DNA from: Devosia pacifica
GTDB taxonomy: Bacteria > Pseudomonadota > Alphaproteobacteria > Rhizobiales > Devosiaceae
DNA: 64,000 nt
Assembly: GCF_014652635.1 (NCBI RefSeq)
Contig: NZ_BMZE01000001.1
Coordinates: 630,051 to 694,050 of the forward strand
Direction of reading: 5' to 3'
Shown here: in pieces, positions 18,680 through 32,854 of the stretch
Position numbering within the stretch: the first letter of the stretch is position 1
Layout of the letters: every line of letters starts with the position of its first letter
Notes under the pieces: model-generated
Seen by the model: only the letters and a program-made list of their open reading frames with translations
Database searches by the model: none
Told to the model about the DNA's origin: nothing
Position numbers and translations under genes: made by a program

Positions 18680-21241
18680 CTAATCTGCCGAGCGTGCGCC
18701 AGCGCGTCCCAAGACCTCTTTTACCTTGGTGTTGATTTGATCCAGCGAATACGGCTTCGGTAGAAAATCGACGGTCTGATCATCTTCGATATCGCGGCGT
18801 ACGCTTTCCTCGGCGTATCCGGAAACAAAGATCATCTTCAGATCCTTCACCTTGTCGCGGATATGCTTGTGAAGAGTAGGCCCGTCCATTTCGGGCATCA
18901 CCACGTCGGAGATAATGAGATCGATCTCGTACCCCAGCTCTTCGAGCACATCGATCGCCTCTTCGCCGCCATCGGCCTCAAACACCTCGTAGCCGGTGGC
19001 GCGTAGCGCTCTTGCCGAAAATGCGCGCACGCTCTCTTCGTCTTCCACCAGCAAAATGCGCTCGTGCCCGGTCAGGTCCTTAACCGGCTTTTCCGCACGT
19101 GCTGACACTTCGGCTTCGGTCACGATATGGCGGGGCAGGAAGATCTTGAAGGTGGTGCCGACACCGACAACCGACTCCGGATAAATGAAGCCTTCGGTCT
19201 GCTTGACGATTCCGTAGACGGTCGACAATCCGAGACCGGTCCCCTTGCCGAGCTCCTTCGTGGTAAAGAAGGGCTCGAAGATCTTCGCGATGACCTCCGG
19301 GGACATGCCTGTGCCGGTGTCCGCCACCTCAACGAGCACGTAATCGCCGGCGACCATGCCCTCGTAGCTGTAGCCCCGCGACTCGGATTCGCTGACATTG
19401 CGGGTGCGCAGTGTGATCGAGCCGCCATCCGGCATCGCGTCGCGTGCGTTAACGACAAGATTGATGATGACCTGCTCGAGTTGTACGACGTCAGCGCGAA
19501 CCGGCCAGATATTGCGGCCATGCTCTACGCTGAGCTGGTTCTTCTCGCCAATCATGCGCTTCAACAGGACGGTCAGGTCATCGACGATCAACGGCAGTTC
19601 CAGCACCTGCGGGCGCAATGTCTGGCGCCGCGAGAATGCAAGCAGCTGCCGGGTCAGTCCTGCGGCGCGATTGGCATTCTGCTTGATCTGCATGAGTTCG
19701 CCGAAAGACGGATCGCCGGGCTTGTGCTTGAGCAGCAATAGATCCGAAAAGCCGATTATGGCGGTCAGCAGATTGTTGAAATCGTGCGCGACTCCGCCGG
19801 CAAGCTGGCCGACAGCCTGCATTTTCTGGCTCTGCGCGAACTGTGCCTCGAGCTTGCGCTGTTCGGTCATATCGAGTGCGTAGACATTCACGCTTTCCGG
19901 CGATCCGGCGCGTGTCTCGGAACCAGACACATATAGGCGCACCGCGTGATCGCCCTCGGCGCTCAGAACCGCGTCAACGGGGTCGATATCCGTCTGCTGT
20001 TCAACACCAGAACCGATAGCCTTGCGGAACTTGTCGCGGCTTGCTTCGCCGATAAGGTCTTCCATCGGATAATGCTCGAGGCTCTTTTCTTCCTCGGACC
20101 AGCGGAAAATGCGGCCGAAAGGCGCGTTCGTACGCATGATCCGCCCCTCGTGATCGAGCGTCGCGATCGCGAACGGTGTATCATTGAAGAAGCGCGAGAA
20201 CCGCACCTCGGCAGCCCGCAACTCTTCCTCGCTGTCCGGTGCAGTGGTCTGGTCGAGCACCAGCGTCCGGGTTTCGCCGAGTTCGCCATCGGCTAGCCGC
20301 GCCGCCCGATGCAGCAGGCGAACCGGAAAGGCGCGGCCATTGCGCCCGACAAAATCGAGATCGATGATCTCGGTGCGGATTTCGCCGTCAGAGCGACCGC
20401 GCATGAGTAGCCGCGCGCCATCTCCCCGCGCGATGTCCGAGAGCCGCAAGCTGCCTGAGTTAAACTCCGCCAGGTCGTATCCGAGCCAATCGGCCAGAGT
20501 TGAGTTGAGGTACTGTACCCGCCCCTCGGCATCCGCCGAAAGAAACCCGGCAGGCGCATGATCGAGATAGTCGATGGCACGCTGCAGATCGCGAAACGCG
20601 ACCTCGATATTGTCCTTGTCCCGCGTGATGTCCTCAACTGACCACACCACCATCGGGCGGTTGAAATCATCGGTGCGCGGCAATGGCCGCGCGGAGACAC
20701 GGTACCAATAGGCTCGCGATGGCTCAGCCTGCGCCCCGCCGAGCCCGCCGATCAGCCGGATATCCTCTACTGCCCCGCGCCCTTCGCGCGCCGCGCGCGA
20801 CAGCCGGTGAATTGCCTCGCCCGCCTCTGCCTGGCCCGCGAAAAGCCGAGGAACGCCCACAGGCACACCGTTTACGAAGCCACCGGCAAAAGCGCCATAC
20901 TGCGCGTTCACATAATAGATCTTGCCCTCACGATCGGCCACTACGGCGCCATAGGGCAAGCCATCGATCACGGCGCGGGACAACGTCCGTCCCTCCTGCC
21001 CGCTGGCGACGCGGAACAGACCGGCCGCGAGGCCGAAAAGGCAAAACACGCCAGCAACCGCCAGCAGCCCGACAAATGTCATCACCAGGTCGATCGGAAC
21101 CTGATCGCCAAAGAATGCGAATGCAACGGCAGCAAGGATAAGCAGTAGTGCCAACGCGAGCACCCGCCACAATCCGCTTGTGCGAACCCGCGACATCAGC
21201 GGTTCGGGATAGTTATCCTCTCTGAGTGATGACTGTGCCAT
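18680..21241 (-). CDS. cckA: Cell-cycle hybrid histidine kinase CckA
   Basis: This is the 853-residue CckA, the membrane hybrid kinase that starts the CckA-ChpT-CtrA phosphorelay. Two membrane helices lie at about residues 24-45 and 50-77. PAS-like sensor domains follow near 90-205, 225-325 and 345-460. The dimerisation domain carries the phospho-accepting His486 ([11 protein letters not shown]). The ATPase domain has [18 protein letters not shown] and [13 protein letters not shown]. The C-terminal receiver has the acceptor Asp779 ([12 protein letters not shown]) and Lys in LPKPYS. It lies 137 bases behind flhB on the same strand, next to flagellar genes carrying CtrA-type sites. Confidence 0.95.
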
Positions 21242-24780: not shown

Positions 24781-24795
24781 TTAAGCGCGGGTTAA
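24781..24795. promoter_or_regulatory. CtrA-type site between flgB and fliO
   Basis: TTAA-GCGCGGG-TTAA is an exact match to the CtrA consensus TTAA-N7-TTAA. It lies between the divergent flgB (start 24721) and fliO-like (start 24902) genes and could control either or both. Confidence 0.75.
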
Positions 24796-24901: not shown

Positions 24902-25573
24902 GTGCAATTCCTGACCAGCCTTTTCGGGGGAATTGGCAATACCTTGATCACAGCCGGACTGGCACTGGGCATAGTGCTGGTGCTGATCCTTTTTGTGCTG
25001 TGGCTTTTCAAGTGGATCACGGGACGGTTCGGACGTGGACCGCAATTGCGTCAGAGGCGGCTCGAGATCATCGAGAGCCTGCCACTCGATACCAAGCGCC
25101 GAATGCTTCTGGTGCGGCGCGACGATGTCGAGCATCTCGTTATCACCGGTGGCACGACGGATGTGCTGGTAGAGTCTCGTATCACGCCGCCACGTGGCCA
25201 AAAGCCGCGCCAGAGCGGCGATGCTGCCGCTTCACGGTTCTCGAATGCCGCAACCGGGGCTGACCGCGACTCGGGCGCTCCCGATACCAAGAACGAGAGC
25301 AAACCGGGTCCGACTGTGTCGGCGTTCGAACGCATGCGCGACGTTTCTCCTACACCACGCGAGCGGGCGCCATCATCGCTTCGGCACACCGGGCTTCTGA
25401 GGCCGGTAACGCGCAGAGAGCATTCGGCACACTCTTCCGTTTCCGAGAATTCGCAACGCAGGTCCGACGACTCAGCTAAACAGAGTCAGCCCACAGAGCC
25501 CGGCACAGCGGATTTCGGTATTGAGGACGACGCCCGACCAGAAACGAAGAATCGCTTCGCAGACCTGCGATAG
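24902..25573 (+). CDS. fliO: FliO/MopB family flagellar biosynthesis protein
   Basis: This 223-residue protein resembles FliO, which helps assemble the FliP ring. A single membrane helix (TLITAGLALGIVLVLILFVL, about residues 14-36) is followed by the family's short conserved domain (LRQRRLEIIESLPLDTKRRM, LLVRRDDVEHLVITGG). The C-terminal 120 residues are polar and low-complexity. The start codon is GTG. It overlaps the proposed fliP start by 53 bases. FliO sequences are poorly conserved, so the call rests on the domain pattern and on the fliP neighbour. Confidence 0.82.
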   Translation: MQFLTSLFGGIGNTLITAGLALGIVLVLILFVLWLFKWITGRFGRGPQLRQRRLEIIESLPLDTKRRMLLVRRDDVEHLVITGGTTDVLVESRITPPRGQKPRQSGDAAASRFSNAATGADRDSGAPDTKNESKPGPTVSAFERMRDVSPTPRERAPSSLRHTGLLRPVTRREHSAHSSVSENSQRRSDDSAKQSQPTEPGTADFGIEDDARPETKNRFADLR

Positions 25574-26321
25574 GCCGATTTTCCGCCATAGGCAGCTTCT
25601 GCTGCCTGTATTCGTCGTCGTCCTTGCCCTGGTGCCGCAACTGGCCTTTGGGCAGGATATCTCCGTCGACTTCGGCGATGACGGGACCCTGACTGAGCGC
25701 GCAATCCAGCTCATCGGGCTGCTTACCGTCCTGTCGCTTGCCCCGTCCCTGCTGGTGATGGTGACGAGCTTCACCCGTATTGTCGTGGTGCTCAGCCTGC
25801 TGCGCACGGCCATCGGCCTGCAAACCGCGCCGCCGAACTCGGTGATGGTGTCGCTCGCACTCTTTCTCACGCTATTCGTCATGGGCCCGACGCTCGAGCA
25901 ATCCTACCAGCAAGGCATTGCGCCCCTGATAGCGGGCGAAATCGAGACAACCGAGGCTTTCGAGCAGGCAAGCCAACCCATTCACACCTTCATGCGGGCC
26001 AATGTCCGCGAGCGTGATCTCGAGCTGTTCTACGATATGGCGAATGCAACACCGCCGGCCGAGCCGGAGGATATTGAGATGCGGCTACTGATCCCTGCAT
26101 TCATGATCTCGGAACTGCGACGGGCATTCGAGATCGGCTTTCTTCTGTTCCTGCCATTCGTCATTATCGACATGGTCGTCGCCTCGGTACTCATGGCGAT
26201 GGGCATGATGATGCTGCCACCAGTCGTCATTTCCCTGCCGTTCAAGCTGATCTTCTTCGTGCTTGTCGACGGCTGGTATCTTGTCGCAGGGTCTCTGGTG
26301 CGCAGTTTCGCGGCGACCTGA
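25521..26321 (+). CDS. fliP: Flagellar export apparatus protein FliP
   Basis: This is FliP, the core ring protein of the flagellar export gate, with a cleaved signal peptide (LLLPVFVVVLALVPQLAFGQ) and four helices. The family signatures are RIVVVLSLLRTAIGLQTAPP and FEIGFLLFLPFVIIDMVVAS. The annotated start is a TTG inside the end of fliO (266 residues). The exact start is unsure, since no ATG lies near the signal peptide. The gene converges on the AMIN/TPR gene, with the stops one base apart. Confidence 0.93.
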   Translation: MRTTPDQKRRIASQTCDRPIFRHRQLLLPVFVVVLALVPQLAFGQDISVDFGDDGTLTERAIQLIGLLTVLSLAPSLLVMVTSFTRIVVVLSLLRTAIGLQTAPPNSVMVSLALFLTLFVMGPTLEQSYQQGIAPLIAGEIETTEAFEQASQPIHTFMRANVRERDLELFYDMANATPPAEPEDIEMRLLIPAFMISELRRAFEIGFLLFLPFVIIDMVVASVLMAMGMMMLPPVVISLPFKLIFFVLVDGWYLVAGSLVRSFAAT

Positions 26322-26322
26322 C

Positions 26323-29300
26323 TCAGGTCGCAGCCGGCTCTTCGGCGTCAACGCCGTCCGCCACGGCCTGCTGCGGCACCGCAGCCGGAACGCGCGCTTC
26401 GCCATAGGTGCTGCGATAGCTGTTGATGAAGGCATTGACGCTGTCGAGCGCCGCCACTTCCCGCGCCAATTGGCGGAATTTGAGGCTCGTTGTTTCGAGC
26501 GGGCTGGTAACGAAGTCGAACATCGGCCATTGCGGCGATGTCGCCATGCGCTCTCCATACTTTTCTCGCAAGCGGGACAAGCCGAATTCGTCATTGCCGA
26601 GCACGTAGCCGACGGCCGCCCTCACCACCTGCATGCGCGCTGCCTCATCAAGGTCCGCACCGGCATAAAGGGCTTCGATCTCTTCAGCAGCTTTCGAGCG
26701 ACGGCCCGCGCGCCAGTGCGCATCTATGCGCAACTGCTCGACATCCCGACCGCTCAGGTCGCTCAGCACGTCGAGCGCGAGATCGTGCCGCTCACCGTCG
26801 ATCAGGGCCCGCGCCTCAAGTATACGCCGCTTGCGTACGAGCGTTGCCGACAGGTTCGGCAGCCGCGTGGCGTTGAGAACTTCCAAAGCCTCCTGCGGCT
26901 TGCGATCCGCCAGGTAAAGCACCGCGAGATCAGCCGCAAGCTGGCTCTTGGCCGCGCCTTGCAGGCGATTGTTCAACTGATAGTCCAGCAGCTCTGCTGC
27001 CTGCGTCAACAGATCGATATCGACCAGCCGCCAGGCGAGATTCCGGATCATTTCGTCGCCGCGCGGTCCCGGCGGGGTCAACTGGCGGAAATCGTAGTAG
27101 AGCGCCAACGCCTCGACGGGCTCCAGAGTGTCGGCCCGACCATCGAGGAACAGTTCGCCGAACACTGTCTGCGCGCGCTGACGGAGCTCTTCGACCGCAG
27201 GATTATCGGGATGGTGCGCGACCGCCTGTTGCACCGTCTCGAACCCGGGCCTGTATTCGCCCGCGCGGAAATAGAGATCGGCCAGCATGCGCACCATATC
27301 GGCTTCCAAAGGTCCGCCACGCCACATCATCGATTCCGACGACAGGGTCTCGAGCGCCTTTGGCACATCGAGTTCGCCGCGTTCATCGAGGATACGCAGG
27401 GTCCGATAGATCGCTTCGGGGCGGGTGGGACGAACATCCGCTGCGATGACACGCCCATATGTGTCAAGCGCTTCCTCGGGACGATCGCGAAGTTCGGCGA
27501 TCCGGCCAACGAGCAAATGATAAAGGCTCGCCTGGTCATCCGTCAGCCGGCCATCCTCGAGTGCTGACGCGAATTGCTCGGCGAGGTCGACATCCTCGAC
27601 TTCTACCGCTGACCGCATCCCTGCCAGCGCAAACATCGTCTGAACCCACACCGGATAGGTGTCGATCACCTCGACCGCTATCAGCGCGTCCTGCCGTGCG
27701 CCACGATACTCTTCGGCTTCCGTACGCGCGATCGTGCGCCACACCAGCGCGTCTATATCGCCAAGAAACTGGGGAGAGGACAGAATGTTGAGCGCATCGT
27801 CGGCGCGGTATGCGAGGGTATCGGCGATGGCCCGCGTCATCAGCAACTCAGGGGTCACGGATTCGCCCGTGACATTGTTTTCGAGCACCCGCAGAACACC
27901 AAGCGCTTCCTGCGCATAGCGGTTCGCCACATAGAACTGCGCAAGCTTCAGGCGCGCCGCGTCGTGTTGCACGCCTTCGGCACCGGCAGCCGCGGTCATC
28001 AACTCGGAAAGCCGCTCATCAAAACGCACAGGATCCGCAGCATGCAATCCTTCAAGGTCAAGAAAATGCGAACGATCGATCCCGTCGCCTTCGAAGAACT
28101 GCGCTCGCGCCGTATCGCTTTCAGAGACCGTCAACCCACCCGGAGCGCTCAGCACAGCGTCGCGCTCGTTGATGTCAACGTCGACCTGCGGGTTCTTGGG
28201 CTTCACCACCAGGCCGTGGACGCTCTTCAAGGCAGAGAAATCGACATACTCGAGGGGACGCACGACGCCGCGTGAAGGCGCGTAGGCGGTCACCACTTGC
28301 AGCTCGTCGCCGACGTCAGGGTCCTCGAAGCGATGCACCCTGCCCGGACGCTCGAGGTCTGCATTGACGACAAAGAACCCGTCGGCATTCAGTGATCGAT
28401 GCAATTCGACGGGTGCGGTCGGCGCCAGCAGAATGTCGCCGAGAGACAATACCCAGGCACGCCCTTCCGAGCCAAGCGTCGCCAGCCTGTCCTCAGCGAG
28501 GTCCATGCGCACAATTTGAACATCGGTCGAGGCGGTTGATTCAAAACCTGAAGCGACGCTCTCAAGCACCTCCGGCGACTCGGGTTCTAGGATGCTCGCA
28601 CCAGTATCGAATAGCATCCACACGGTGTTGCCGCGACGGAACACGGCCGCAGGCACATCCTGCTCAAACGGAAACACCACTCGAACGGTATTGCCCACCA
28701 CCTTGATCAGCGGCGTGATCGGCTCTTCGTTCAAGTCGCTTTCGAGATTGGCGACGGGCCCTTCAGCCAACGCCGGCGCCGCCCCGTTTAGCTGCGCCAC
28801 CCGCTGCACGAGATCCTGCTGCGTAAGCTCGGGCAGTTCCGGACCATCAAGGTCGATATCGAGCAGATATTGCGTGGGAGAAGCCCTGAAGAAGCGCGGC
28901 GATACCCCCTCCGCCAGCTCCATCGATATGCGCGTACCATCCTCGGACGGCACGCTTGTCAGCGCAGCAATTTCCGGCGGAAGGTCACGCTGGATGTCGC
29001 CAAGCTCGATCGGCACCGGCCACTCAAAGCCGATTTCCGCGAAGCTCTCATCCTCGTTGAACACGGCCTCGGTGGGGACTGACCAGTCGAACTGCAGGCG
29101 AAGGAAGGTCGGGTTACGCCCCAGACGAACGGCGACCTGCGGTCGAAGCGCTTCGGCTTCACGTGCTTTGCGTTCCCGCTCGGCAGCAATTGCTGCCATT
29201 TCGGCACGTTCCGCCAATTCATCGATCACGGCCTGCGGCAGGGACGGCGGCATACCGCTCCACTCTTGCGGCAGCAGGTCGATGAACAGTCTCTCGCCCG

Positions 29301-29658
29301 CTTCAATGCTGTTTAGTCGGTAAGGCCGTAGCAATGCCACGCGGATGCCTGTGCTATCCGGGTCGGCCCGGGCGAGCGAAGCATAATCGCCGATCTCCTC
29401 GCCAACGTCCGGCACGACCACATCGACCGGATTGTCGAACTCGATCGAAAGGATGTTGTTTTCCATCCGCAGATCATAGTCGGGAAGTGACTGGCGCTCC
29501 TCGAAGGTCAGCACAAGCCGGGCAAAGCCATCTTCCGAAAATGCGGAGAAGCTGACATCCTCTTGAGCGCCTGCGGAGACAATTGTGCAAAGCAACACCG
29601 TCGTCGCGCCCATGGCACGCCGCACGAAGTTCCTGTCTGCCGTGATAGCAGCCTTCAC
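26323..29658 (-). CDS. Large periplasmic AMIN-like/TPR protein in the flagellar cluster
   Basis: I do not recognise a named gene here. The 1111-residue protein has a signal peptide (about residues 1-31, ending SAGAQ). Two or three beta-rich AMIN-like modules occupy roughly 33-360. The first (FARLVLTFEE, then LSIEFDNP) and second (LRLQFDWSVP, then RISMELAEGV) follow the AMIN strand pattern. The C-terminal half, about 560-1060, is helical TPR-like repeats (for example LYHLLVGRIAELRDRPEEAL, LYLADRKPQEALEVLNATRL). It is probably periplasmic. It lies downstream of motE, converges on fliP, and has a CtrA-like site before it. A role in motor or envelope assembly is an inference. Confidence 0.75.
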   Translation of the reverse strand: MKAAITADRNFVRRAMGATTVLLCTIVSAGAQEDVSFSAFSEDGFARLVLTFEERQSLPDYDLRMENNILSIEFDNPVDVVVPDVGEEIGDYASLARADPDSTGIRVALLRPYRLNSIEAGERLFIDLLPQEWSGMPPSLPQAVIDELAERAEMAAIAAERERKAREAEALRPQVAVRLGRNPTFLRLQFDWSVPTEAVFNEDESFAEIGFEWPVPIELGDIQRDLPPEIAALTSVPSEDGTRISMELAEGVSPRFFRASPTQYLLDIDLDGPELPELTQQDLVQRVAQLNGAAPALAEGPVANLESDLNEEPITPLIKVVGNTVRVVFPFEQDVPAAVFRRGNTVWMLFDTGASILEPESPEVLESVASGFESTASTDVQIVRMDLAEDRLATLGSEGRAWVLSLGDILLAPTAPVELHRSLNADGFFVVNADLERPGRVHRFEDPDVGDELQVVTAYAPSRGVVRPLEYVDFSALKSVHGLVVKPKNPQVDVDINERDAVLSAPGGLTVSESDTARAQFFEGDGIDRSHFLDLEGLHAADPVRFDERLSELMTAAAGAEGVQHDAARLKLAQFYVANRYAQEALGVLRVLENNVTGESVTPELLMTRAIADTLAYRADDALNILSSPQFLGDIDALVWRTIARTEAEEYRGARQDALIAVEVIDTYPVWVQTMFALAGMRSAVEVEDVDLAEQFASALEDGRLTDDQASLYHLLVGRIAELRDRPEEALDTYGRVIAADVRPTRPEAIYRTLRILDERGELDVPKALETLSSESMMWRGGPLEADMVRMLADLYFRAGEYRPGFETVQQAVAHHPDNPAVEELRQRAQTVFGELFLDGRADTLEPVEALALYYDFRQLTPPGPRGDEMIRNLAWRLVDIDLLTQAAELLDYQLNNRLQGAAKSQLAADLAVLYLADRKPQEALEVLNATRLPNLSATLVRKRRILEARALIDGERHDLALDVLSDLSGRDVEQLRIDAHWRAGRRSKAAEEIEALYAGADLDEAARMQVVRAAVGYVLGNDEFGLSRLREKYGERMATSPQWPMFDFVTSPLETTSLKFRQLAREVAALDSVNAFINSYRSTYGEARVPAAVPQQAVADGVDAEEPAAT

Positions 29659-29760: not shown

Positions 29761-29775
29761 TTAACGTAGGCTTAC
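29761..29775. promoter_or_regulatory. CtrA-like site upstream of the AMIN/TPR gene
   Basis: TTAA-CGTAGGC-TTAC matches the CtrA consensus with one mismatch. It lies in the 139-base gap between motE and the AMIN/TPR gene, about 100 bases before the latter's start. Confidence 0.5.
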
Positions 29776-29797: not shown

Positions 29798-30730
29798 TCA
29801 TTGCCCGACAATTTGCGGCAACTCTTCGAGGTCCTGCGCCGAAAACTCGTCACGCGGAGCGGTACTGATATCGGCGATGGCCACGGTCAATTCCTGAGCC
29901 CGGGCGGGATTCATCTCCGCCAGAATCATTGCCATTTTGCGCGGCGCGATTGCCTTGGCGAGCGGCACCAGCACGCCTCTGTCGAGCTCGTTGAATATAG
30001 TCGCCGCATCTTTAGGGCGCATCGACTCGTACATGGAAACCACGCCGGTCAGCAGATCGGACTCCGCCGCGTCGCGCTCGGCGACCAGTTCGTCGATTCG
30101 CGCTTCAAGCGTTTCCATAGTCTGGGCCCGTTCCTCGATACGCTGCTCCGCAGCCTCGATCAGCGCCTCGCGCATCTCCAGTTCCTGCGCATAAGCCTCG
30201 AGTTCATTGCGCCGTTCGGCGAGACGATCCAGCAGCGTGCGCTCGGTCATGACGCCGTCGGCATCGCTCGACAGAGGGGTAAACTCGCCATCAACGTCAA
30301 GCGAACCGACTTCTGCATCCTGTTGCTCGGCGAGACACTCGGCTGAAACCACGCCCTGGTTCGGCAGGCCATCTCCACAAGCTGACTCAGCCTCCGGCCC
30401 AGCGGCTTCAGGTGTCTCATCGCCGGATCCTGCATCGACTGCCTCGCCGGCAGCCGCAGTTCCTTCCTCCGGCGCTTCTCCTGCTGCCTCCTCCCCGCCC
30501 TCAGCACCGGACGCCTCCGGTGCAGGCTGGCGCATTGTCGGGGCCTCGTCCTCGATCGTCACGCCGCCGTCTTCGATGGTCGGCGTTTCAGGCAGGCTGA
30601 GATCCTCCTGCGCCAGCACCAATTGCGGCGAAAGCACATAACCACCATTGGTAACGAGCGAGACTGTCTTGAGTGCAAGCAATGCACAGGTGGCGCCAAC
30701 AACGACGGGAAGCAGCCTGATGGTTCTCAC
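29798..30730 (-). CDS. motE: MotE family motility protein
   Basis: This 310-residue protein matches the MotE family (MgtE-N-like domain). In Sinorhizobium, MotE is a periplasmic chaperone for the motor protein MotC. A membrane anchor or signal lies at about residues 7-28. An Ala/Glu-rich linker follows (about 55-140), then a coiled coil (LAERRNELEAYAQELEMREA onward). The conserved domain is SMYESMRPKDAATIFNELDR followed by KMAMILAEMNPARAQELT. The start overlaps the DUF6468 stop by 4 bases. No motC-like gene is visible nearby. Confidence 0.85.
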   Translation of the reverse strand: MRTIRLLPVVVGATCALLALKTVSLVTNGGYVLSPQLVLAQEDLSLPETPTIEDGGVTIEDEAPTMRQPAPEASGAEGGEEAAGEAPEEGTAAAGEAVDAGSGDETPEAAGPEAESACGDGLPNQGVVSAECLAEQQDAEVGSLDVDGEFTPLSSDADGVMTERTLLDRLAERRNELEAYAQELEMREALIEAAEQRIEERAQTMETLEARIDELVAERDAAESDLLTGVVSMYESMRPKDAATIFNELDRGVLVPLAKAIAPRKMAMILAEMNPARAQELTVAIADISTAPRDEFSAQDLEELPQIVGQ

Positions 30731-31158
30731 GCGGCCTCTCCACGGTTACGGCCATAGTCAGAAAGCTGCTGCAGCGCGGCCTGTACCTTGGTTGCTTGCG
30801 GTTCTGGCGGCGCGAGCGGCTGGCGCTGACGGGCGGCGCTGGTGATCTGGACGATGCGCTCCATCAGAGCCGTGCCGGCACTGACGTGATTGGCGAGTTC
30901 GACGCCAAAGCGGTCGGCTTCTTCGAGGCGAACGCTCAGCGTCGAGTCCGCTTCCTGCGCCGTAACCTTGAGTTCCTGGATGGCCCGATTTGCGAGATTG
31001 GTGGCATTAACGAGATCATTGACGATATCACGCAACTGATCCCGATCCTGATGCAGGCGCTTCAGGCGCGCGTTCAAGACGACGCAATAGCCTATTGTCA
31101 GCGCGAGAAGAATGGCAACGCTGCCTTCAATGACGAGCCCGAGGGGAAACGCTGACAT
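30727..31158 (-). CDS. DUF6468 flagellar-cluster protein
   Basis: This 143-residue protein has one N-terminal membrane helix (about residues 8-28, VIEGSVAILLALTIGYCVVL). A long coiled-coil region follows (LKRLHQDRDQLRDIVNDLVN, then IQELKVTAQEADSTL). It fits the DUF6468 family, which recurs in alphaproteobacterial flagellar clusters without a defined function. It overlaps the fliM end by 1 base and motE by 4 bases, so fliL-fliM-DUF6468-motE is a tightly coupled operon. A motor-linked role is inferred from this alone. Confidence 0.78.
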   Translation of the reverse strand: MSAFPLGLVIEGSVAILLALTIGYCVVLNARLKRLHQDRDQLRDIVNDLVNATNLANRAIQELKVTAQEADSTLSVRLEEADRFGVELANHVSAGTALMERIVQITSAARQRQPLAPPEPQATKVQAALQQLSDYGRNRGEAA

Positions 31159-32315
31159 TACTGGTCATCCTTTCTATCAATGTCCTCGAACGCCGCCATT
31201 GTGACTTTTGGCGCGTTGAGCGGACGGACCACGCGAACGGACACGTTGTCGCCGATATGGCCCATGATCGCTTGCGTGAGATCGACCCCTCCACAGCGAA
31301 GGCGGATTGGGTCGGTTGGCGCCCTGTCGAACATCACAGTTTCGCCGACCGCCAGATTCATCACGCGCGACAGCGGCAGATCCTGCTGATGCAAGACGGC
31401 CTCCAGCTCGGTATCGGCCTTGTAGATCTCGGTGGCCAGATGGCCTTCCCAGATCGGATCACGGCCAAACTTTTCACCCATGAACATCTGCAGCAGCTGT
31501 TCACGGATTGGCTCGATGGTGGCATAGGGCAGCAGGATTTCGACCTTGCCGCCGCGATCATCCATCTCGATGCGCAGTTCGATGAGAATCGCTGCATTGG
31601 CGGGGCGTGAAATTGTCGCGAAGCGCGGATTGGTCTCCATCCGCTCAAGCTTAAAGTTCACTTGCGTCACCGGCTCGAACGCGCGGTGCGTATCCTCGAG
31701 GATGACCTCGATCATCCGCCGTGCGAGAGCCATTTCGATCGTCGTGTAGGGACGCCCTTCAACCCGGATCGTGCCACCACTGCGGCGACCACCCAGCAGC
31801 ACGTCGATCATCGAATAGATCAAGCCGGAGTCGATGGTCAGAAGCCCATAATTCTCCCACTCTTCCGCACGGATTACCGACAGGATGGCCGGAAGCGGGA
31901 TGGAGTTCAGATAATCTCCGAACCGCACAGAAGAGATTGACTCGAGAGAGACCTCAACGTTGTCGGAGGTGAAGTTCCGCAGGCTCGTCGTCGAAAGGCG
32001 CACCAGCCGGTCGAAGACGATCTCCAGCATCGGCAATCGTTCGTAGCTGACGAGAGCCGAGTTGATGAGCGCCTGCACGCCAGTCAGTTCGACCGACGAG
32101 GCCGCACTCGAATCGAACCCCAGAAGGCTATCGATTTCATCCTGATTGAGCACCTTATCGGTGCCTTCACCTGCCGCTTCAGCTTCCTGCTGCGCCAGCA
32201 TCGCCGCCCAATCGGCATCGGCGTCATCTTCGCCGGCCGTTGAGGACGATGCGTCGGAGCTCTCGATCTCGTCGAGGCTCCACTCATCACTGAGCTTGTC
32301 GCTTTCGTTCGCCAT
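31158..32315 (-). CDS. fliM: Flagellar motor switch protein FliM
   Basis: This 385-residue protein is FliM, the C-ring switch protein that binds phospho-CheY. The CheY-binding motif (NQDEIDSLLGF) sits at about residues 56-67, preceded by an acidic extension of some 55 residues. The central CheC-like domain includes LLTIDSGLIYSMIDVLLGGR. The C-terminal SpoA domain includes MGHIGDNVSVRVVRPLNAPK. Its start overlaps the fliL stop by one base (TAATG). Confidence 0.95.
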   Translation of the reverse strand: MANESDKLSDEWSLDEIESSDASSSTAGEDDADADWAAMLAQQEAEAAGEGTDKVLNQDEIDSLLGFDSSAASSVELTGVQALINSALVSYERLPMLEIVFDRLVRLSTTSLRNFTSDNVEVSLESISSVRFGDYLNSIPLPAILSVIRAEEWENYGLLTIDSGLIYSMIDVLLGGRRSGGTIRVEGRPYTTIEMALARRMIEVILEDTHRAFEPVTQVNFKLERMETNPRFATISRPANAAILIELRIEMDDRGGKVEILLPYATIEPIREQLLQMFMGEKFGRDPIWEGHLATEIYKADTELEAVLHQQDLPLSRVMNLAVGETVMFDRAPTDPIRLRCGGVDLTQAIMGHIGDNVSVRVVRPLNAPKVTMAAFEDIDRKDDQ

Positions 32316-32797
32316 TATTGAACAAGCAACTCTTTGAACAGAATGCTCTCAACATGAGAGGGATAGATGGCGGTGTTGACCCGCCGCAGCAGTTCCTCTT
32401 TCAGCCGGTAGATGCCGGCGGACCCCTCAAGATCGCTGCGGCGCAGCTCGCGCAGATAGACCTGGAAAGCGTCGATAACCTTCGCCAGCTTTGGCTGAAT
32501 TTCGGTCATGACCTCCTCACTGGCCACTTCCAGCGCGATTGTCATCTGCAGGTATGACTCGCCCTCTCCCTCATTGTTGAGGTTAACGGTCATGCTGGGC
32601 AGGTTGAAAATGAATGTGTCCGGGACACTAACCTCAGCGCTTTCGGCTGCGGCCTCCTCTGCCCCCGGTGACATGAAGAAGAACATCGCAGCGCCTGCGA
32701 CAAGCACCACGGCCCCGGCAGCGGCACCCATGATGATCATCTTCTTTTTCTTGCCACCGGCCGGTTCGGCCTGCTGGACTTCTGCGTCTGTCGCCAT
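32315..32797 (-). CDS. fliL: Flagellar basal body protein FliL
   Basis: This 160-residue protein is FliL, a stator-associated inner-membrane protein. A Lys-rich patch (GGKKKK) precedes the single membrane helix (about residues 20-42). The periplasmic domain includes FIFNLPSMTVNLNNEGEGES and the C-terminal LKEELLRRVNTAIYPSHVES. I start at MATDAE, since the 13 upstream residues are atypical and the ATG has a purine-rich site. It heads the fliL-fliM-DUF6468-motE operon, with a CtrA-like site at 32855. Confidence 0.93.
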   Translation of the reverse strand: MATDAEVQQAEPAGGKKKKMIIMGAAAGAVVLVAGAAMFFFMSPGAEEAAAESAEVSVPDTFIFNLPSMTVNLNNEGEGESYLQMTIALEVASEEVMTEIQPKLAKVIDAFQVYLRELRRSDLEGSAGIYRLKEELLRRVNTAIYPSHVESILFKELLVQ

Positions 32798-32854
32798 GCT
32801 GAGCCCCCGCTCCACGGGACGATTCCAGTTCTGCACCAGCTAAGGCCTTCGTGG

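Follow-up and report, generated by a model that had tools for sequence, protein, structure and literature searches.

What does a large exported protein contribute when its gene lies inside a flagellar cluster beside motE? The question is raised by a locus of Devosia pacifica (NCBI RefSeq assembly GCF_014652635.1, contig NZ_BMZE01000001.1, positions 630,051 to 694,050; these 64,000 nucleotides, analysed as a whole, are called the window), where a minus-strand gene at 26323-29658 encodes 1111 residues with AMIN-like modules and tetratricopeptide repeats (TPRs). A sequence-only reading of the window had suggested that this AMIN-TPR protein could be either the local client of MotE or a scaffold between motor and peptidoglycan. 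That idea is supported here, with the scaffold option favoured: the nearest solved structure is a scaffold chain, and the described relatives FssB and MotK are needed for rotation. The protein is quite probably the AMIN/TPR protein that partners MotE in alphaproteobacteria (FssB/CC_2058 type), with a function like that of the PflA spoke in Campylobacter jejuni. The kind is known, its relatives (FssB/CC_2058, MotK, PflA) have already been interpreted, and the motor-scaffold idea is already in print for the FssB/MotK relatives; the member described here is new. Published work is cited throughout from excerpts of the papers named.

The gene and its conserved neighbourhood

The open reading frame (ORF) is real, the minus strand being open from a GTG codon and the plus-strand reading containing stops. 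A database search returned 441 related proteins at E<=1e-3 (own entry included); among the matches listed, 119 others share 53-57% identity over 94-99% of the protein, many of them named Devosia, and the names given are 'hypothetical' or 'tetratricopeptide repeat' protein. The proposed position between fliP and motE was confirmed, with fliP convergent and motE, the DUF6468 gene, fliM and fliL following one another upstream on the same strand (Table 1). The remainder of the cluster consists of flhB, fliR, fliE, flgC and flgB, with flgF, flgG, flgA and flgH on the other flank. The motE product matches MgtE_N at 0.002, under the cut-off, and the collar_FlbB model at 9.6e-8, under its curated cut-off.

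A motif scan limited to a single genome for each species located 494 stretches, 489 of which encode a relative, and neighbourhoods were taken from the best 80. The association with motE recurs in this survey: in 77 of the best 80 loci motE is found upstream and in the same orientation (at a distance of <=300 bp in 74), and the three loci without it (L117, L120, L122) start at or inside the AMIN-TPR gene. fliM is present in 75 and fliP in 72 of these loci. The gene belongs to a conserved series, fliL-fliM-DUF6468-motE-AMIN/TPR. Longer gaps between motE and the AMIN-TPR gene occur in L067, L075 and L139; at L075:5949-7729 (Devosia nitrariae) the two are ~2 kb apart, with two intervening ORFs that resemble, by eye, a lipid kinase and a metallophosphoesterase, and the gap of L067 is similar. 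In two other loci (L118:7947-11303, Pelagibacterium sp. SP179, and L124:7941-11391, Devosia algicola) the frame is split into two ORFs, by either a frameshift or a sequencing error.

Table 1. Positions in the window of the AMIN-TPR gene, its predicted parts and its neighbours.
Feature	Position	Strand	Remarks
AMIN3-beta-TPR protein gene	26323..29658	minus	1111 codons/amino acids, GTG start, open frame
Putative export signal, residues 1-31	29566..29658	minus	by eye; helix 9-24 of low confidence in model
AMIN-like module 1, residues 33-130	29269..29562	minus	
Helical linker, residues 142-171	29146..29235	minus	predicted structure
AMIN-like module 3, residues 317-407	28438..28710	minus	
Fourth beta domain, residues 419-504	28147..28404	minus	no sequence similarity to modules 1-3
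TPR superhelix, residues 535-1090	26389..28056	minus	predicted structure
Highly conserved stretch, residues 850-884 (ALALYYDFRQLTPPG...)	27007..27111	minus	core is the motif-scan pattern
fliP	25521..26321	plus	convergent neighbour of the AMIN-TPR gene
CtrA-like site TTAA-N7-TTAC	29761..29775	.	one mismatch; ~100 bp before start codon
motE	29798..30730	minus	candidate E-ring protein; MgtE_N-like C-terminus
DUF6468 gene	30727..31158	minus	sits at the pflI position
fliM	31158..32315	minus	
fliL	32315..32836	minus	

Domain architecture and the nearest solved structure

In the predicted structure, three AMIN modules are followed by a fourth beta domain and then by a long TPR superhelix; ahead of them is a putative export signal recognised by eye (basic start, hydrophobic stretch, SAGA/QE). 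Both folds suggested from the sequence letters, an AMIN-like N-terminus and a long TPR-like half, were therefore obtained in the models, and both are also found in Pfam matches of relatives: among 36 family members (set A1, E<=0.01), TPR_2 is present in 23, the AMIN-like PF24837 in nine and AMIN PF11741 in three. For the 1111-residue protein itself, Pfam gave no AMIN match and only weak TPR ones (TPR_14, 22.6 bits versus a cut-off of 23.5). With the full model, the VIA-align matches lay mainly within residues 540-1008. A separate model was therefore predicted for the N-terminus, and it resembles the AMIN domains found in AmiC and in PilQ.

Foldseek, run with the full model against 350,542 PDB chains, placed 9hmf_K first (E 1.1e-11; second match 5.0e-8), a chain of a Campylobacter motor scaffold. 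PflA presumably comprises 788 amino acids, the length used to identify this chain: because its 773 residues fit a PflA of that size from residue 16 onwards, chain K of 9HMF is taken to be PflA. The deposit is the periplasmic scaffold of Campylobacter jejuni, and the published PflA model begins at residue 16 (PMC12222027). Among the VIA-align matches listed for the full or N-terminal model there is no 9hmf chain, which excludes nothing, and among the matches listed in a sequence-profile search of the PDB there are TPR proteins and PilQ and no Campylobacter scaffold chain.

Distribution with flagellar type

In a sample of 121 genomes from the order, strong matches to the family profile (E<=6.7e-86) occur in 74, and FliM scores are either strong (>=111 bits; 74 genomes) or low (<=96 bits; the sole FliM in nine). 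The two sets of 74 coincide, the family being present in 74/74 strong-FliM genomes and 0/47 others. Outside this count, 12 of the 121 genomes have weak family matches only (E 5e-13 to 9e-4), two of them (G339, G355) with a low-scoring FliM and the others with none; the strongest (G358, 84% complete, no FliM) is a fragment aligned to the AMIN range that may be a remnant. In a sample of 289 genomes from the class, the family profile (E<=1e-15) matches 153, FliM 160 and MotE 152; the family overlaps with FliM in 145 genomes and with MotE in 142, and all three coincide in 139. Eight family-positive genomes are without FliM and 11 without MotE. A single-protein query found 152 genomes, with the same overlaps (145 with FliM, 142 with MotE).

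AMIN and TPR modules are found in many envelope proteins, and the protein might accordingly be a general cell-envelope factor merely located in a flagellar cluster. Such a role is rejected because of the co-occurrence with FliM: the order sample divides without exception, and the class sample gives a Fisher p of 2.5e-53 for family versus FliM (related genomes treated as independent). On the data from order and class together, we give this explanation virtually no credence.

MotC and the AMIN-TPR protein alternate with flagellar type. Nineteen order genomes have MotC, namely all nine with low FliM only, eight without a Pfam FliM (including G422, a marginal match, E 2.5e-4), and G346 and G427. 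The latter two carry two FliM each and both MotC and the AMIN-TPR protein, with MotC 15-16 kb from the low FliM, and motE and the AMIN-TPR gene within ~2 kb of the strong one. G425 also has both FliM types (contig 30), and the profile found no MotC match there. Eight order genomes lacked the AMIN-TPR gene in a first survey; seven of these had no MotB match and one had motB-motC. Devosia has a subpolar flagellum and no lateral one (survey, PMC6406911 table 1), and the lateral cluster of Bradyrhizobium holds motC and motE (review, PMC8429497), which suggests that strong FliM marks the subpolar flagellar type. On this reading, the AMIN-TPR protein would fill the place held by MotC in the other type. 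The earlier remark that no MotC-like gene lies beside the AMIN-TPR gene held good. The genome's motB (PF13677) is on another contig (C2), adjoining a motA-like ORF; no motC-like ORF was seen beside it when the neighbours were read by eye, and a MotC profile search of this genome (G000) gave no match at E<=1e-3. MotC is absent here, we suggest, because it goes with the other flagellar type and the AMIN-TPR protein with the strong-FliM type. Homology between the two is not claimed: hhalign gave 86-92% for the AMIN-TPR core against MotC and 52-54% for the core against BamD (reversed controls 0.2%), but MotC scores as well with BamD (89%), and the similarity may be generic to TPR proteins. With a larger MotC set, contaminated by over-long ORF starts, the values were 35-52%, versus 37-61% for BamD.

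Some family members appear to lack AMIN modules, as judged from their length and the start point of the profile match. Two follow motE (ORFs of 655 codons in G079 and 592 in G097), and others are on flagellar plasmids: Erythrobacter aureus (548 amino acids as annotated, E 8.8e-83), Alloyangia (9.9e-35), Salipiger (4.6e-33) and Marinovum algicola (MALG_04541, 1.7e-27), these E-values being from a search of six sequences. The short relative adjoins flgF in the three Roseobacteraceae among these, where motE was not searched for. Long ORFs near motE in L153, L157 and L159 were inspected as possible MotK proteins. By eye, the one in L157 resembles a potassium transporter and the one in L159 looks like a frame artefact, and both were rejected. 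L153:9828-10805 and the ORF below it (contig 2 of G097) are part of another flagellar cluster, which has a separate motE and encodes a plausible exported TPR-like protein, possibly a true MotK; this protein has no significant match to the family profile (E 6 for the full sequence, 2e-4 for the best domain) and shares its genome with one of the AMIN-less members.

CtrA-like sites and the adjoining kinase

The AMIN-TPR gene had been credited with its own CtrA-like site, and this site is present (Table 1) and recurrent. The gap between motE and the AMIN-TPR gene was surveyed in the 63 nearest loci, five of which were dropped for want of a usable gap; the best match is 7/8 in 58/58 gaps (1.5% of shuffles reach 7/8), although the loci are related and do not represent 58 independent cases. 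The gaps between flgF and fliL also carry a 7/8 match in 49/51 loci. Judging by the motif, CtrA would be the binder of this candidate site. CtrA-like sites with <=1 mismatch number eight in the window versus 3.1 expected, among them an exact TTAA-N7-TTAA at 24781-24795, between flgB (minus strand) and a fliO-like ORF (by eye) that precedes fliP (plus strand).

A hybrid kinase gene adjoins flhB (18680-21241, minus strand). It is CckA-like and would put a CtrA-pathway kinase beside a cluster with CtrA-like sites. A kinase match is present in 41/60 named loci with flhB, and 18 of the 19 others end <=760 bp after flhB; L078 has none although 3.0 kb are present beyond flhB.

Proposed role at the motor and alternative explanations

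The protein is read as a MotE-bound spoke tying a ring to the wall and stator zone because of four published observations. MotE is the alphaproteobacterial FlgY of the E-ring literature (PMC13023049, PMC11870540); MotK is needed for rotation and binds MotE and MotB2 in vitro (PMC10954123); deletion of fssB in Caulobacter leaves a paralysed flagellum, as does deletion of motB, with no assembly defect (PMC7885107); and PflA spokes have their TPR end toward the motor axis, with the E-ring between PflA and the MS ring (PMC12222027). In the proposed mechanism, the AMIN-TPR protein would be exported by the Sec route, its TPR superhelix would hold the MotE ring (the E-ring) that encircles the MS ring, and its three AMIN modules would reach outward to peptidoglycan, the stator region or both. 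The spoke might in this way position or activate stator units and allow the assembled flagellum to rotate. The gene, its predicted folds, its synteny and its type-specific co-occurrence with FliM and MotE are observations on this protein and its family, and analogy with the relatives suggests that it would also bind peptidoglycan, contact MotE and MotB, occupy a position in the motor and affect rotation.

Several points weigh against the spoke reading. The best structural match is taken to be PflA, the Campylobacter spoke protein, from its length; the match to 9hmf_K is local (template modelling scores 0.15/0.19, root-mean-square deviation 38.5 A, no superposition), the 9HMF deposit consists of predicted models that were fitted and reduced to an alpha-carbon trace, and TPR proteins are alike by default. 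The cut between strong and low FliM was set after the scores had been seen, the family profile was built partly from order-sample genomes, and the perfect co-occurrence is in part a consequence of the gene's physical linkage to fliM. At E<=1e-15, the profile is missing in 15/160 FliM and 10/152 MotE genomes of the class sample. Eight of these 15 match FliM weakly (E 6.8e-28 or weaker), and contigs end before motE in G321 and 1.3 kb after it in G085; the other five (G151, G192, G240, G255, G309) have FliM without a family match and are unaccounted for, G151 and G255 giving weak matches with the single-protein query.

Alternatively, the protein could be mainly a regulator of stator output that is folded with MotE as its chaperone and forms no fixed spoke, as proposed for Sinorhizobium MotC, whose chaperone MotE is described to be (Eggenhofer 2004, as cited in PMC13023049 and PMC8429497). 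That MotC replaces the AMIN-TPR protein in the other flagellar type fits this explanation. In C. sphaeroides, however, it is the stability of MotE that depends on MotK, not that of MotK on MotE, and MotE still localises when MotK is missing (PMC10954123, PMC13023049); moreover, the nearest structural match is a chain of a scaffold, and the protein, having AMIN modules and not being encoded beside motB, is not MotC-like. We consider this alternative unlikely. It is more improbable still that the protein is an assembly or placement factor (e.g., for polar siting) outside the torque machinery; in the operon, DUF6468 does occupy the place of pflI, a gene linked to the positioning of the Caulobacter flagellum (PMC10954123), but the paralysis of the fssB mutant, like that of the motB mutant, is not an assembly defect.

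The spoke reading proposes a role for a gene whose annotation, among the matches listed, is mostly hypothetical or TPR, in a family present in each of the order's 74 strong-FliM genomes and in 145/160 FliM genomes of the class, and a sequence profile is now available for a part recognised in the literature by structure and gene position. Where a Hyphomicrobiales genome has two flagellar systems, both alternative partners of MotE can be present, and a possible control of motor behaviour by the spoke therefore becomes testable. The text of the cited excerpts (figures and supplements being outside our scope) holds no mention of three AMIN modules, although models of this sort are shown in PMC11870540 (extended-data figure 12), no statement of an AMIN-TPR/MotC partition by flagellar type, and no description that we found of AMIN-less short relatives. 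The AMIN domain of PflA has been proposed to derive from PilQ in an ancestor of the Campylobacterota (PMC11870540). A more speculative view, which we hold only tentatively, is that the AMIN+TPR spoke is an old motor part common to alphaproteobacteria and Campylobacterota and no pilus borrowing special to the latter, each alphaproteobacterial type having its own MotE spoke: triple-AMIN in subpolar motors, AMIN-less in Sphingomonadales and Roseobacteraceae, and, most reduced, MotC in lateral-type motors. Given how widely the AMIN-TPR family occurs in alphaproteobacteria, an older AMIN origin is worth testing, with convergence as the alternative.

Comparison with known systems

The closest described counterpart is FssB of Caulobacter crescentus (CC_2058, CCNA_02137), a TPR protein that is exported by the Sec route and has an AMIN-like region at its N-terminus (PMC10954123, PMC7885107), and whose gene lies downstream of the motE homologue CC_2059 (PMC13023049) as the AMIN-TPR gene lies after motE here; one AMIN region is described for FssB (residues 36-132) versus three modules here, and the two are likened by description, not sequence. 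MotK of Cereibacter sphaeroides likewise combines an AMIN-like N-terminus with TPRs and is encoded in the motE operon (PMC10954123). MotK has 652 amino acids, one described AMIN region and a gene after motA, whereas the present protein has 1111 and is encoded directly after motE, with the stator genes elsewhere; this likeness, too, comes from description, not sequence. PflA of Campylobacter jejuni, which is not conserved at the sequence level (PMC11870540), shares the AMIN-like beta-sandwich and the TPR superhelix (of 16 repeats according to PMC12222027 and 17 according to PMC11870540) and, as the partner of the MotE homologue FlgY, forms the spokes of the periplasmic scaffold; it binds PflB and has one beta-sandwich, compared with three AMIN modules and a beta domain here. 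MotC of Sinorhizobium and its relatives is similarly a periplasmic TPR-type partner of MotE, associated with the other (lateral-type) flagellum, but it has ~400 amino acids and no AMIN module found, and its gene lies within motB-motC-fliK, whereas the AMIN-TPR gene is not beside motB.
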